A stretch of DNA of 64,000 bases from the NCBI GenBank assembly GCA_005881275.1, contig VBEF01000042.1, positions 1 through 64,000 on the forward strand, read 5' to 3'. The notes beneath the pieces are model-generated. The model worked only from the letters and a program-made list of their open reading frames with translations, searched no databases and was not told the origin of the DNA. A program made the position numbers and the translations under genes. This DNA comes from Chloroflexota bacterium. Its GTDB lineage: Bacteria; Chloroflexota; Dormibacteria; Dormibacterales; Dormibacteraceae. Shown piece after piece: positions 33,951 through 50,146 of the stretch. How positions within the stretch are numbered: the stretch's first letter is position 1; the number at the start of each line of letters is the position of its first letter.

Positions 33951-33975
33951 CCGCCAAACACATGTTCGCTAGACT
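33947..33975 (+). promoter_or_regulatory. recA promoter with LexA (SOS) operator
   Basis: TTGACC at 33947-33952, 17-bp spacer, TAGACT at 33970-33975. The operator CAAACACATGTTCG (33955-33968) fills the spacer; it matches the Gram-positive SOS consensus CGAAC-N4-GTTCG at 9 of 10 fixed positions. The -35 overlaps the stop codon of the pgsA-cinA gene. The recA leader would be about 80 nt. Confidence 0.75.
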
Positions 33976-34060: not shown

Positions 34061-35161
34061 GTGGACAAAGACAAAGACAAGGACAAGGACAAGGAACGGG
34101 ATAAGGCCCTTGAGGAGAAAGGCAGAGCCCTCGATTCGGCCATGTCCCAGATCACGAAGAGCTATGGCAAAGGCGCGATCATGAAGTTGGGGGAGCACTT
34201 TGCGCAGCGCAGCGAGGTAACCGCCATCTCCACAGGTGCGCTGCCTCTGGACCTGGCGCTCGGAGTGGGGGGTATCCCGCGCGGCCGGGTGACCGAGATC
34301 TACGGTCCGGAGTCGGCCGGCAAGACCACCCTTGCCCTGCATGTCATCGCGGAGGCGCAGAAGGCTGGCGGCGTCGCGGCGTTCGTCGACGCGGAGCATG
34401 CCCTCGACCCGCTCTACGCGTCGCGGATCGGCGTCAAGATCGACGACCTCTTGATCAGCCAGCCGGACACCGGCGAGCAGGCGTTGGAGATCGTCGAGGT
34501 GCTGGTCCGCTCGAACGCCGTCGACGTGATCGTCATCGACTCGGTGGCGGCTCTGGTGCCGAAGGCTGAGATCGAGGGGGAGATGGGCGACTCGCACATG
34601 GGCCTCCAGGCGCGCCTCATGTCCCAGGCGCTGCGCAAGCTCACCGCGGCGATCTCCAAGTCGAACTGCGCCGTGATCTTCCTCAACCAGCTGCGCGAGA
34701 AGGTCGGGATCATGTTCGGCAACCCGGAGACACAACCCGGGGGCCGGGCGCTGAAGTTCTACTCCTCCGTTCGCCTCGACATCCGCAAGGTCGAGGTCAT
34801 CAAGAACGGCCTCGACTCGGTCGGCAACAGGGTGAAAGTCAAAGTCGTCAAGAACAAGGTGGCGCCGCCGTTTCGCTCCGCCGAGTTCGACATCCTGTTC
34901 AACGAAGGAATCTCGCACGAGGGAGCGTTGATCGACGCGTCGATCGAGTACGGGATCCTCGAAAAGAGCGGCACCTGGATGTCCTACGGCGACCAGCGGC
35001 TCGGCCAGGGTCGGGACAACGTCCGCAACTATCTGCGCGAGAACCCGACGCTGTGCGCTGAGATCGAGTCGAAGGTGCGCGAGAAGGCGGCTCTGGCGGC
35101 CGCGCCGCTGCGGACCGCTGCACCCCTCAGGTCGCCGGCAGGTGCATCTGAGGAGTTCTAA
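34061..35161 (+). CDS. recA: Recombinase RecA
   Basis: 366 residues. Strand-exchange ATPase and LexA co-protease. Walker [14 protein letters not shown], Walker [15 protein letters not shown]1/L2 region [26 protein letters not shown], followed by the C-terminal domain. GTG 34061 has AGGAGG upstream. The N-terminus carries an unusual Asp-Lys repeat ([14 protein letters not shown]) encoded by GACAAR hexamers before the conserved [19 protein letters not shown]. Controlled by an SOS-type promoter; overlaps recX by 20 bp. Confidence 0.97.
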
Positions 35162-45887: not shown

Positions 45888-47179
45888 TCACGACCAAGAG
45901 TCCGCGCGAGCGGGCGTTTCTCGTCGGGATCCTGCTGCCCGGCACGCCTCCCGAGACGGTTCGCGACCAGATGACCGAGCTGGCCGACCTTGCTCGCACC
46001 GCCGGCGCCGAGGTCGTCGGGTCGGACGTGCAGCGCCGCTCCGAGGTCGACCCCGCGCACTTCATCGGCATGGGCAAGGTCGAGTCCATGCGCGACATGA
46101 AGCTCGAGGGCGGCTTCGACCTGATCATATGCAACGACGATCTCAGCCCGCGCCAGCAGCGAAATCTGGAGCTGCAGGTCAAGGCGCGGGTGCTCGACCG
46201 GACGGAGATCATCCTCGAGATCTTTGCCCAGCACGCGCGCACCCATGAAGGCCGGCTCCAGGTCGAGGCTGCTCGCCTGCACCACCTGCTGCCGCGCCTG
46301 ATCGGCGCATACGCGTACGACCGGCAGGTCGGTGGCCGGCGGGGGGGAGTGGGGGCCCGCGGCGGTTTCGGCGAGCAGCAGATCGAGGTCGAACGGCGCC
46401 GGATTCGCAAACGCATCCGCGACCTCGACCGCGAGATCGAGCAGGTGCGCACCCAGCGCCACCAGCAGCGCACCGGTCGCAGGCGCGCCGAGCTGGACAC
46501 TGCGGCGATCGTCGGCTACACGAACGCGGGTAAGTCGACGCTGCTCAACGCCTTGACGGGGGCGGGCGTGCGCGCTGAGCAGAAATTGTTTGCGACGCTC
46601 GACCCGACAACGCGAAAGCTGGAGCTGCCGGCAGGTCGCGAGTTCCTTCTGACCGACACAGTTGGTTTCATCCAGAAGCTGCCGACCGATCTGGTCGCAG
46701 CGTTCCGCGCCACGCTCGAGGAGGTCACGGAGGCAGATCTGATCCTCCAGGTCCTCGACCTCAGCTCTCCGGCGGTGGAGGAGCAGGCTCAGACCGTGGA
46801 GGAGGTGTTGACGGACCTGGGCGCCGCAGACAAGCCGCGCGTCGTCGTGCTGAACAAGGTCGACCTGCTCGGCCCGGCAAGCCGGCGTCGAGCCATCGCC
46901 GCGCTGTCCGATCGCTATCCCGGCGCGGTCGCCATCTCGGCCACCAACCGGGCCGGGCTCAAGGAGCTGCTGGGTGCGCTTGACCAGGCCAGCCGGGGCG
47001 ACTCAGTGCCGCTCGAGATTCTGGTTCCGTACGGGCGGGAGGGCGTGCTGGCCGAGCTACGCAAGGTGGGCGGGGTGGAGCGGACCGAATATGTCGAGGG
47101 CGGCACCAAGGCCTGGGGTTGGGCGCCCCGCCATGCCGCCCGAAGATTCGAGAACTTCGCGGCTAACGGAAGAGCCTGA
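45884..47179 (+). CDS. hflX: GTPase HflX
   Basis: Ribosome-associated GTPase that splits or rescues stalled ribosomes. N-terminal nucleotide-binding domain (GADVQ-like region, GMGKVESMRD), long helical hairpin (ARTHEGRLQVEAARLHHLLPRL), GTPase G1 GYTNAGKSTLLNAL, G3 DTVGFIQKLP, G4 NKVDLL. The first canonical start is ATG 45971, yet ERAFLVGILLPG, the conserved family opening, is encoded upstream. The frame is open to CTG 45884, which overlaps the dapL TGA (CTGA), with no ATG/GTG/TTG between. About 431 residues. Converges on lexA with a 17-bp tail overlap. Confidence 0.93.
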   Translation: MITTKSPRERAFLVGILLPGTPPETVRDQMTELADLARTAGAEVVGSDVQRRSEVDPAHFIGMGKVESMRDMKLEGGFDLIICNDDLSPRQQRNLELQVKARVLDRTEIILEIFAQHARTHEGRLQVEAARLHHLLPRLIGAYAYDRQVGGRRGGVGARGGFGEQQIEVERRRIRKRIRDLDREIEQVRTQRHQQRTGRRRAELDTAAIVGYTNAGKSTLLNALTGAGVRAEQKLFATLDPTTRKLELPAGREFLLTDTVGFIQKLPTDLVAAFRATLEEVTEADLILQVLDLSSPAVEEQAQTVEEVLTDLGAADKPRVVVLNKVDLLGPASRRRAIAALSDRYPGAVAISATNRAGLKELLGALDQASRGDSVPLEILVPYGREGVLAELRKVGGVERTEYVEGGTKAWGWAPRHAARRFENFAANGRA

Positions 47180-47789
47180 TCACACCTCGGACCACGCCGA
47201 CAAGGCTCACGTTGTTGCTCACGATCGGCTGGTAGGCCGGATTCTCGGCGATCAGCTTGACGCGGCCGTCGCTGCGCTCGAACCGCTTCACCGTGGCCTC
47301 GCCTTCGACCAGCGCCACCACGATCGAGCCGTTGCTCGCCTCCTGCTGCGGCCGGATGAGGACCAGGTCGCCCTCGAGGATGCCCGCGTTGATCATGCTG
47401 TCGCCGCGCACGCGGAGCATGAAGTACCCGTCCTTGGCCAGATCGGAAGAGAGCAGGACGTGGTCTTCGATGTTCTGTTCGGCCAGGATCGGCGAGCCGG
47501 CCGCCACGTGGCCCACGATGGGCACCGAGACGGCGTTCCGGCGCTGCTGGTCGACCTCCGCGTCCTGGACCAGCTGCACGGTCCGGGATTTGCTCGGGTC
47601 GCGCTTGATCAGGCCGCGGCGCTCCAGCTGGTTGAGGTGGTTGTGGACGGTCGAGCTGGAGCTCAGGCCAACCGCCTCCCCGATCTCCCGGACGCTGGGC
47701 GGGTAGTTGCGGACCTTGGTCACGTACCTGATGTAGTCGAGGATCTTGTTCTGGCGTTCAGTCAGTTGGTCGGTCAATTTTGTATTCAT
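47163..47789 (-). CDS. lexA: SOS repressor LexA
   Basis: 208 residues. Winged-helix DNA-binding domain (LTERQNKILDYIRYVTKVRNYPPSVREIGEAVGL), Ala-Gly cleavage site in HVAAGSPI, catalytic Ser in VRGDSMINAGILEGD and catalytic Lys in EGEATVKRF. Represses the SOS regulon and cleaves itself when RecA is activated. Diverges from a LysM gene across three operator-like sites, so autoregulated. Tail-to-tail overlap with hflX. Confidence 0.97.
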   Translation of the reverse strand: MNTKLTDQLTERQNKILDYIRYVTKVRNYPPSVREIGEAVGLSSSSTVHNHLNQLERRGLIKRDPSKSRTVQLVQDAEVDQQRRNAVSVPIVGHVAAGSPILAEQNIEDHVLLSSDLAKDGYFMLRVRGDSMINAGILEGDLVLIRPQQEASNGSIVVALVEGEATVKRFERSDGRVKLIAENPAYQPIVSNNVSLVGVVRGVIRLFR

Positions 47790-47819: not shown

Positions 47820-47859
47820 ATGCTAGCACTTCGAGCCGCCGGCCGCAAACCTTTGTTCG
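47820..47859 (-). promoter_or_regulatory. lexA promoter with LexA operator 1
   Basis: On the minus strand TTGCGG (47848-47843), 17-bp spacer, TAGCAT (47825-47820). Operator CAAACCTTTGTTCG at 47846-47859 overlaps the -35 region. Confidence 0.65.
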
Positions 47860-47864
47860 TCATC

Positions 47865-47893
47865 TTGACAGGCAAACGCGCGTTCGCTATCCT
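47865..47893 (+). promoter_or_regulatory. LysM gene promoter with LexA operator 2
   Basis: Perfect -35 TTGACA (47865-47870), 17-bp spacer, TATCCT (47888-47893). Operator CAAACGCGCGTTCG (47873-47886) occupies the spacer, as in recA. Transcription would start about 3 nt before the ATG, giving a near-leaderless message. Confidence 0.75.
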
Positions 47894-47895
47894 GC

Positions 47896-47909
47896 CAAAC
47901 GTATGTACG
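47896..47909 (+). promoter_or_regulatory. LexA operator 3 over the LysM start codon
   Basis: CAAACGTATGTACG differs from the other operators at one fixed base (GTACG for GTTCG) and spans the ATG at 47903, so a bound repressor would block the start site. Confidence 0.55.
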
Positions 47910-48214
47910 CCGCTAGGCCCGGAATCAAACCTTGGCGGGCAAACCGTGCCGGCGGCAACGGCTCATGGCGGCGGCTGCTGGCGGCAGTCGCCGCTGTGGC
48001 TGCGCTCAGCATCGCGTTCTCCCTGGGCGCCCGGGGCGGCGGGGACACGCACTACACGACGGTCGAGGTGGAGCCAGGCGACACGCTGTGGTCGATCGCC
48101 TCGGCGCACTATCCGGCGGATGATGTGCGGGTCCGTGTCGATGACATCGAGCAGGCCAACGGGCTGTCGGGGCCGGCGATCCAGGTGGGGCAGAGCCTGC
48201 GCCTGCCGGCTTAG
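47903..48214 (+). CDS. LysM domain protein, probable SOS-induced cell-division suppressor (YneA-like)
   Basis: 103 residues: basic N-terminus, one membrane helix or signal anchor (LLAAVAAVAALSIAFSLGA, about 25-43), then a LysM peptidoglycan-binding domain (TVEVEPGDTLWSIASAHYP...IQVGQSLRLP). A LysM/membrane protein divergent from lexA is the arrangement of B. subtilis yneA and actinobacterial equivalents, which delay division during SOS. The predicted promoter and two operators support the same role; function is inferred from context. Confidence 0.82.
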   Translation: MYAARPGIKPWRANRAGGNGSWRRLLAAVAAVAALSIAFSLGARGGGDTHYTTVEVEPGDTLWSIASAHYPADDVRVRVDDIEQANGLSGPAIQVGQSLRLPA

Positions 48215-48340: not shown

Positions 48341-48568
48341 GTGAGGCTGGTCCTGGTCACCCGGCTGGGCTGCCACCTCTGCGACCAGGCGCTGAGCCTC
48401 CTCCGGTCCCTCGGTCATGAGCCCGAGCTGGTCGATGTCGACGCCGACGACCGCCTGCACGACCTCTATGACTGGCGCGTGCCGGTGGTGCTTGTCGATG
48501 ACCGCGTCGTCGCCGAGGGCCGGATCACCCTCGAACAGCTGTCTAGAGCGGTGGGCAAGGGAGTCTGA
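48341..48568 (+). CDS. Glutaredoxin-like protein
   Basis: 75 residues with the thioredoxin-fold redox motif CHLC in LVTRLGCHLCDQALSLL and a cis-Pro region VPVVLVDDRVVAEGRIT. Fits the short glutaredoxin/DUF836 group. GTG 48341 is not preceded by an obvious Shine-Dalgarno. The 126-bp gap before it contains a GGGCT-TGAC-AGCCC hairpin but no recognisable gene. Confidence 0.82.
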   Translation: MRLVLVTRLGCHLCDQALSLLRSLGHEPELVDVDADDRLHDLYDWRVPVVLVDDRVVAEGRITLEQLSRAVGKGV

Positions 48569-48621: not shown

Positions 48622-49143
48622 CTAAGCTCCGGATAACCTGAGCCTATGGATCTTTCGGGACGAGTGCATCGCCTTCCGAACGAAGTCATCTGAACCGCGG
48701 TGATTCAGTTCTCGCTGTTTCCAGTAGAGGGCTTCCTGTACGTCAAGCCAGGCCTTCGGGAGCGTCTGCCGACCTAACGTCCGGCGGCTCCTTCGCGAAA
48801 GCTCGATCATCGCAAGAGCGTTATCGCACTGAGGGATCTTGAGTCGCAGATACGGGCGGATCCCGGTCAAGAATGGTCGGGCACTTTGGCCTGTTTGAGT
48901 CCGCCAGTTCCAAGCCTGGCGAGCTTTCAGTCCGCGAAGCGGCGAAGATGCTGAGACGATCCATCCGCCCCAATTGATCTGCATCCAGTCCAGAACACCG
49001 CGATCACGATTGCTCACGACGATATGGACGCTGTAATAGAACCGACCGCGTCTGGGCTTGAATGAGCGAGCAATCGCGATGCAGCCTTCGCCGTCGACAA
49101 AGCCGGCCGCGTAGGCCCAGTCCGTGTCTTTGATCTCGGTCAT
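48622..49143 (-). CDS. Freestanding LAGLIDADG homing endonuclease
   Basis: 173 residues. WAYAAGFVDGEGCIAIARS is a LAGLIDADG-family motif (the AGFVDGEG form); the following HIVVSNRDRGVLDWMQ and the C-terminal EALYWKQRELNHRG fit single-motif family members, which act as homodimers. It lies two bases after the stop of the SOS-promoter gene and so should be co-transcribed with it. By eye its base composition is clearly less GC-rich than its neighbours, suggesting horizontal arrival. No intron or intein context is visible. Confidence 0.85.
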   Translation of the reverse strand: MTEIKDTDWAYAAGFVDGEGCIAIARSFKPRRGRFYYSVHIVVSNRDRGVLDWMQINWGGWIVSASSPLRGLKARQAWNWRTQTGQSARPFLTGIRPYLRLKIPQCDNALAMIELSRRSRRTLGRQTLPKAWLDVQEALYWKQRELNHRGSDDFVRKAMHSSRKIHRLRLSGA

Positions 49144-49145
49144 GG

Positions 49146-49511
49146 CTAGGCGGAGCGCTGCAGGGCCGGCTCGGCGTCCAGGCCGCGCAGGAAGACTTCC
49201 AGCGGGAGCGCTGCCGCCTCGAAGTCACCGTGCAGCAGCTCCAGGTCGGCCCCCGCCTGGCCAAGCCCGGCGATGGCCAGGTCGACCCAGCGCAGAGACT
49301 CCTTGACGTAACGGTCCAGGGCCGGGTCCAGCGGTCGCGCCAGGCTTTCCCGGCGCCAGGACTCGCGCAGGTCGTCGGCGAGCTCCTGGAGCCTGTCCAC
49401 GCGCGATCCGGCCTCGCCGCGCTCGAGCGGCTCCGACGCAAGCCGGATCCGGGCCTCCGCGAAGGCGCGGATGAGCCGCCGAAGCTTGACCTGGATTGCC
49501 AGCGTACGCAT
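49146..49511 (-). CDS. Unknown 121-residue protein under a predicted SOS promoter
   Basis: I do not recognise the family. The protein is mostly helical and strongly charged, with LRRLIRAFAEARIRLASEPL and RVDRLQELADDLRESWRRES as likely long helices and a less charged C-terminal third (LAIAGLGQAGADLELLHGDF). No signal peptide, membrane helix or Cys. The promoter is TTGCGG-N17-TACAAT with a perfect LexA-type palindrome in the spacer and a second site over the ATG. The gene is followed immediately by a LAGLIDADG endonuclease. Likely damage-induced; biochemical role unknown. Confidence 0.75.
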   Translation of the reverse strand: MRTLAIQVKLRRLIRAFAEARIRLASEPLERGEAGSRVDRLQELADDLRESWRRESLARPLDPALDRYVKESLRWVDLAIAGLGQAGADLELLHGDFEAAALPLEVFLRGLDAEPALQRSA

Positions 49512-49552
49512 GTTCGTGATCGCATTGTACCGAACGAGCGTTCGGGCCGCAA
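49503..49552 (-). promoter_or_regulatory. SOS promoter with two LexA operators
   Basis: Minus strand: TTGCGG (49552-49547), 17-bp spacer, TACAAT (49529-49524), ATG at 49511. A perfect palindromic operator CGAACGAGCGTTCG lies at 49531-49544 inside the spacer. A second site CGTACGCATGTTCG (49503-49516, one mismatch) spans the start codon. The layout copies the LysM promoter and might also touch the -35 region of mntP on the other strand. Confidence 0.72.
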
Positions 49553-49576
49553 CCCGCGGTTGTTAAGCTCTCGTCG

Positions 49577-50146
49577 GTGCGCCAGCTGCTCCTGACCGCC
49601 GGCCTCCTCCTCCCCCTCGCCCTCGACACCTTCGCGCTCGCCGCCGCCCTGGGCGTGGCCGGCCTCGAGAAGCAAGACCGGCTGCGCGTCGCCCTCGTGT
49701 TCACGGTCTTTGAAGCGGGCATGCCAATCGCCGGCATCCTCGTCGGGCGGATTGCCGGCAACCTGATCGGCGCCTGGGCCGGCTACGGCGGGATCGTGTT
49801 CCTCTTCATCGCAGGGTTCCTCCTCCTTCGGCCGGGCCAGGACGACGCGAAGGAGCAGAAGCGCCTCCGCCTGCTGGCCCATGCCCGCGGCCTGGCCATC
49901 CTCGACCTGGGTCTGAGCATCAGCGTCGACGAGCTGACCGTCGGCTTGAGCGCCGGGCTGCTCGGCCTGCCCATCGCCCTGACCGTGGTCTGGATCGCGA
50001 TCCAGGCGTTCGCCGCGGCCCAGGTCGGGCTCAGGTTTGGCGCCAGGTTGGGCGAGAAGATACGAGAGCGGTCGGAGCAGGTTGCCGGCGTGGCTCTGAT
50101 CGCTGTAGCGCTAGTTCTCCTCGGACTGAAACTCCTGAACATCTAG
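49577..50146 (+). CDS. MntP-family manganese efflux pump
   Basis: 189 residues with six predicted membrane helices. The repeated motifs LLPLALDTFALAAALGVAGL and DLGLSISVDELTVGLSAGLLG match the two-fold MntP/LysE-like pattern with the conserved Asp in each half. GTG 49577; a LexA-type site lies 33 bp upstream but belongs more clearly to the divergent gene. Confidence 0.82.
   Translation: MRQLLLTAGLLLPLALDTFALAAALGVAGLEKQDRLRVALVFTVFEAGMPIAGILVGRIAGNLIGAWAGYGGIVFLFIAGFLLLRPGQDDAKEQKRLRLLAHARGLAILDLGLSISVDELTVGLSAGLLGLPIALTVVWIAIQAFAAAQVGLRFGARLGEKIRERSEQVAGVALIAVALVLLGLKLLNI

Follow-up and report, generated by a model that had tools for sequence, protein, structure and literature searches.

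We analyzed a 64,000-nucleotide stretch of contig VBEF01000042.1 (herein the window), from a Dormibacterota MAG related most closely, among named genomes, to CF_ MAGs of soil 'Chloroflexi' and to Ca. Dormiibacterota palsa MAGs. A short open reading frame on its minus strand, herein orf121, lies close to lexA (Table 1). It belongs to a widely conserved gene order: acyl-CoA dehydrogenase, tetR, (mntP), orf121, (homing endonuclease), glutaredoxin, LysM, lexA, hflX, aminotransferase, miaA. Of these, mntP and the homing endonuclease, given in parentheses, are outside the conserved core, and mntP stands beside orf121 mainly within the window's genus. The LexA encoded here appears canonical in sequence. 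The LysM gene (47903-48214) has the attributes of the YneA/ChiZ type, namely a LysM domain, LexA sites, lexA as its neighbor and, judged by eye only, a membrane segment; the division-inhibitor mechanism of YneA and ChiZ has been described (PMC13396833).

Table 1. Genes and control elements in the lexA-orf121 region (window positions)
Feature	Position	Strand	Basis
lexA	47163..47789	-	TIGR00498, E 7e-67; Ala-Gly cleavage site and Ser/Lys dyad motifs located
Three predicted LexA sites, lexA/LysM intergenic	47846..47909	.	47846-47859, 47873-47886, 47896-47909; conserved in relatives
LysM protein gene, divergent from lexA, YneA/ChiZ-like by architecture	47903..48214	+	Pfam LysM, 2e-13
Glutaredoxin-like gene, conserved neighbor	48341..48568	+	Pfam PF05768; synteny
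LAGLIDADG-type homing endonuclease	48622..49143	-	phrog_5046, 3e-20; PADLOC HEase, 2.7e-6; 2 bases after orf121 stop
orf121 (predicted SOS gene)	49146..49511	-	121-aa ORF from ATG; codon-position test; orthologues; AF2 model
Probable LexA operator 2, CGAACATGCGTACG = CGAAC-ATGC-GTACG	49503..49516	.	One mismatch; covers orf121 ATG
-10 element TACAAT of orf121	49524..49529	-	Sequence; TAnnnT conserved in orthologues
Predicted LexA operator 1, CGAACGCTCGTTCG	49531..49544	.	Perfect CGAAC-N4-GTTCG between -35 and -10 of orf121
-35 element TTGCGG of orf121	49547..49552	-	Sequence; TTGC/TTGA at same place in orthologues
MntP-like manganese exporter, divergent from orf121	49577..50146	+	Pfam Mntp, 6e-25

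Because third codon positions change ∼2 to 4 times more than the others when near relatives are compared (9, 9, and 37 differences by codon position in one example), and because the orf121 frame is the sole frame open in all 10 of 10 relatives, orf121 is a genuine coding gene. Searching with a single sequence detected orthologues in 35 of the family's 42 genomes, and a profile of 28 rows recovered a further one in G018; orthologues stand beside lexA in at least 36 of the 42. For G031, which gave no match, the contig ends inside the endonuclease, short of the gene position, and this may account for the absence. The profile retrieved members of this family only from a 400-genome sample of the phylum, and a deeper search of 14 genomes from sister families returned no convincing relative. 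Viral contigs and phages yielded none and plasmids only a weak match under a DsbD annotation, and a mobile origin was rejected on these grounds. Two putative paralogues (G005:C80, opposite an RNA polymerase beta-prime-like gene, and G001:C1) were likewise discarded as weak matches with no credible tblastn match at either locus.

The original prediction described a promoter with a perfect palindrome in its spacer and a near-match across the start codon; both were located (Table 1). On the minus strand the promoter reads TTGCGG-N17-TACAAT-N12-ATG, with the ATG at 49511 and a 17-bp spacer of CCCGAACGCTCGTTCGG. The position of the -10 element implies a leader of only ∼5 to 6 nt, i.e., a near-leaderless mRNA with no Shine-Dalgarno sequence. 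The likeness that had been claimed to the layout of the LysM gene is also seen: in addition to the sites at 47846 and 47873, CAAACGTATGTACG at 47896-47909 covers the LysM ATG. Site counts alone are weak evidence for an operator. The window holds 9 sites at one mismatch or fewer vs. 4.4 expected, and the whole genome has four perfect sites vs. four for a reversed control pattern; shuffling the 66-bp intergenic region of orf121 gave a perfect site in 2 of 20,000 shuffles. It is conservation that decides.

The orthologous promoter could be read in 34 cases (33 tabulated together, with G018 as the 34th). Operator 1 is perfect in 31 of these, 28 to 34 bases upstream of the ATG, and carries one mismatch in another (G015), such that an operator was present beside the orthologue at 32 of 34 promoters. 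Between invariant half-sites, the N4 center takes at least 14 different forms among the orthologues. Near lexA, all 29 perfect sites found across 18 loci (148,609 bases) lie either in the promoter of orf121 or between lexA and LysM. The same motif precedes known SOS genes elsewhere in the genome: for recA, located at 34124 of the window, the site is CAAACACATGTTCG at 33955 (one mismatch), and perfect sites lie in the promoters of imuA-imuB (C113; a DnaE2-like gene starts further on) and of an mrfA/mrfB-like helicase-exonuclease pair (C99). The fourth perfect genomic site (C87) has no evident SOS gene beside it. Among relatives, the imuA box is present in 29 of 30 (27 perfect, two with one mismatch). 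Based on this conservation at orf121, lexA/LysM, and imuA, it is very probable that this motif represents the LexA box of the Dormibacterota family studied here, and orf121 carries it as consistently as imuA. The operator overlaps the orf121 promoter and is conserved upstream of orthologues, and both lexA, its cleavage and catalytic motifs recognized by sequence only, and RecA are present. LexA control of orf121 is thus strongly predicted from conservation of the operator, and we consider it very likely indeed. The SOS gene originally proposed finds support here as a predicted, lineage-specific one, given operator conservation and the occurrence of the same motif at neighboring SOS genes; orf121 would be a new member of LexA regulons, a known kind of system, that is limited to one family.

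Such control is not universal, since genus g2 keeps the gene without operator 1: the G017 promoter shows no recognizable operator 1 and that of G018 merely a 3-mismatch remnant. Genus g2 (G017, G018; L134, L135, L136, L165) combines degraded LexA sites at orf121 with weak ones at lexA, and no canonical imuA or mrfA match was found in either genome; together these observations suggest a rewired SOS regulon. G018 has a Y-family polymerase-like locus with a perfect box nearby.

Perfect LexA boxes also mark several other genes in the wider group. The mrfA-like DEXH helicase (MZB domain) and mrfB-like exonuclease have one in two genera, as does an mrfB-like gene on its own in a sister family (loci L050:3242 = G000:C99:21241, L101:1488, and L092:877); we know of no description of LexA control of MrfAB. 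In a sister family of the class, the promoter of a different, ∼100-aa protein contains a perfect box (L066/L094 G045; L067/L095 G430; L071 G436). This protein looks helix-hairpin-helix-like by eye, its N-terminal ELELPL/ELQLPL motif resembles a clamp-binding peptide, and the one member sampled had no Pfam match; its gene is a candidate for another new SOS gene. Finally, DUF222-like (13E12-like) genes have perfect boxes (L062, L068, L069/L096, L097), reminiscent of the SOS-linked 13E12 genes of mycobacteria; the single gene checked matched Pfam under the curated cut-off.

Of the two operators originally claimed, the spacer site is the conserved one and the start-codon site is less certain. The latter is nevertheless constrained at the DNA level, as the Arg2 codon of orf121 is CGT in 26 of 29 orthologues and such codons are rare elsewhere in the gene (26 of 495 arginine codons); at codons 2 to 5 of 43 long ORFs in the window, CGT makes up 3 of 19 arginine codons. 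What this constraint serves can be read in two ways. The site might be a translation-initiation element of a short-leader mRNA rather than a second LexA operator, a reading that is possible, if somewhat doubtful. It persists in genus g2, where operator 1 is gone, and some orthologues with an altered right half still have the left half (GAAC before the ATG); several distant orthologues have it degraded or absent, the most distant ones lacking it. Its survival in g2 and its absence from the most distant orthologues make it a less certain LexA operator than the spacer site. Against a purely translational role, a comparable site covers the ATG of the LysM gene, with the ATG elsewhere within the palindrome, and in another family of the class this LysM start-codon site is a perfect GAACN4GTTC (L138, L139). 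Moreover, the orf121 site fits the ChIP-derived Streptomyces consensus tCGAAC-N4-GNNCGa, which accepts GTACG (PMC9380542). A second LexA operator, possibly also serving translation of the near-leaderless mRNA, is the probable interpretation.

Two further readings concern the neighbors of orf121. The homing endonuclease was said to follow the gene directly; this holds in the window and fails in most relatives. It is a sporadic insertion, carried by a minority of relatives and mostly at this same position, and is not part of the orf121 unit, so that its place in an SOS candidate system is not borne out. Were orf121 a cargo or helper gene of the endonuclease, in a selfish element tracking DNA damage, one could point to the 2-base spacing, to the close downstream position in most other loci having an endonuclease, and to possible cotranscription. 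However, most loci have orf121 without it, no locus was encountered in which the endonuclease occupies the slot and orf121 is missing, and no orf121 relative was convincingly found in viral contigs, phages, or plasmids; the comparison of loci has already largely refuted this idea, which we regard as barely credible. Classification of orf121 itself as a homing-endonuclease element was likewise rejected, the linkage being inconstant. The endonuclease at 48622-49143 may be co-induced with orf121. On the other side, operator 1 lies within the intergenic region common to orf121 and mntP in the window's genus, where it may also overlap the divergent mntP promoter (49531-49600). It is very improbable, however, that the palindrome serves mntP or another repressor and leaves orf121 outside LexA control: loci without mntP, in which the upstream neighbor is tetR or some other gene, still have the operator at the orf121 promoter, and the operator half-sites match those of the lexA/LysM, imuA, and mrfA boxes exactly.

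The orf121 product had been called an unrecognized, helical protein, and our searches agree. No convincing family match was obtained in Pfam (single protein and 27 orthologues), NCBIfam, PHROGs, PADLOC, or PDB sequences; a PADLOC Csx15/20 match (E 0.005) and Pfam matches of single orthologues were taken as chance, and the family profile matched only designed helical repeats and flagellin in the PDB. AlphaFold2 predicts a confident, soluble four-helix bundle (pLDDT 88.6); the model of an orthologue of ∼41% identity (pLDDT 89.8) resembles it, apart from a short additional helix at the C terminus. Foldseek with both models found no significant match in the PDB (best E 0.13, generic bundles), nor with one model among viral structures (best E 0.2). 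Conservation is highest in the first helix (MRTLATQVKLRRLIR), at W52, and in the last helix (ALPLEVFLRGL); PALQRSA is the C-terminal sequence of most members. The first helix has six basic residues and one acidic, with R12, R15, and R23 invariant. The overall pI of the orthologues varies between 5.1 and 10.8; such a spread speaks against plain DNA binding and in favor of a protein partner. Features of the YneA/ChiZ type are missing from orf121, with no LysM match in Pfam and no transmembrane character (GRAVY -0.23). Assignment as an ImuA/ImuB mutasome protein was rejected, as Pfam and PDB-sequence searches gave no RecA-like or Y-polymerase domain, and so was a HEPN RNase toxin, the alignment containing no conserved histidine for an Rx4-6H motif.

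We propose that LexA dimers on operator 1, between the -35 and -10 elements, would block RNA polymerase at orf121, and that LexA would probably also sit on operator 2, over the start of transcription and translation. On DNA damage, activated RecA would cause LexA to cut itself and orf121 would be released, its near-leaderless mRNA giving a 121-aa soluble four-helix-bundle protein. This protein could act as a cytosolic, protein-binding effector of the SOS state via its conserved basic N-terminal helix, either as a partner of the LysM division inhibitor in a cell-cycle checkpoint or as a modulator of RecA or of the ImuA/ImuB polymerase. That orf121 is under LexA control and its product an intracellular protein effector seems likely; that it is specifically a cytosolic protein-binding SOS effector we put forward with low confidence. 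Small SOS genes linked to lexA in other bacteria mostly encode cell-division inhibitors (YneA, ChiZ, SosA), and for this reason a checkpoint role is favored, tentatively.

Nearly as likely is an accessory role with RecA or a polymerase. A function as a mutasome or RecA accessory factor, serving translesion synthesis or RecA instead of cell-cycle control, would agree with the regulator and phylogenetic range that orf121 has in common with imuA-imuB, with the loss of operator 1 in the sole genus without canonical imuA and mrfA, and with the invariant arginines of the basic helix. Yet G026 (92% complete) has no imuA match and still carries orf121 with a perfect operator, which contradicts a strict tie to ImuA. 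An ImuB-like gene remains in this genome, with a box at one mismatch close by. Genus g2, without canonical imuA, retains orf121 itself, orf121 was never seen adjoining imuA, and no similarity to a repair protein was found. Such a role is rather unlikely in our judgment. The most far-reaching reading would be an undescribed SOS effector family with a new mechanism, e.g., a soluble division or replication inhibitor that forms with the LysM protein a two-part checkpoint, inside and outside the membrane; this is speculative, and unlikelier still.

The SOS response of Dormibacterota, which are uncultured soil bacteria, appears undescribed, in that none of the papers searched names 'Dormibacter' together with 'LexA'. 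Together with the imuA, recA, lexA/LysM, and mrfA boxes, orf121 offers a testable first sketch of its regulon, and, as a gene kept beside lexA whose operator hardly varies across the family, it is clearly a candidate for a damage-response function specific to this lineage.

Compared with known systems, both orf121 sites fit the core of the Streptomyces venezuelae LexA consensus tCGAAC-N4-GNNCGa (PMC9380542), whereas the searches found homologues of orf121 in the Dormibacterota family only. PDB four-helix bundles (PcaY/Tsr ligand-binding domains, FAT and GIT1 PBD domains, FliS) have the same general shape as the orf121 model, but none matches it significantly (best E 0.13) and no function is inferred from them. 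Like the division inhibitors SosA (Staphylococcus aureus), SidA (Caulobacter), and SulA (Escherichia coli), the orf121 product is a small, lineage-specific SOS protein, here by prediction; family and structure searches found no similarity to these. Of the three, SulA has an alpha/beta fold, and the other two are membrane proteins. In setting, orf121 parallels yneA of Bacillus subtilis and chiZ (Rv2719c) of Mycobacterium, which are small, SOS-controlled (for orf121, by prediction), and encoded beside lexA. Unlike these, orf121 has no LysM domain or transmembrane segment, its product being predicted as soluble and all-helical, and the LysM and glutaredoxin genes intervene between it and lexA; the lexA-linked, LysM-bearing architecture of yneA and chiZ is that of the LysM gene of the window.
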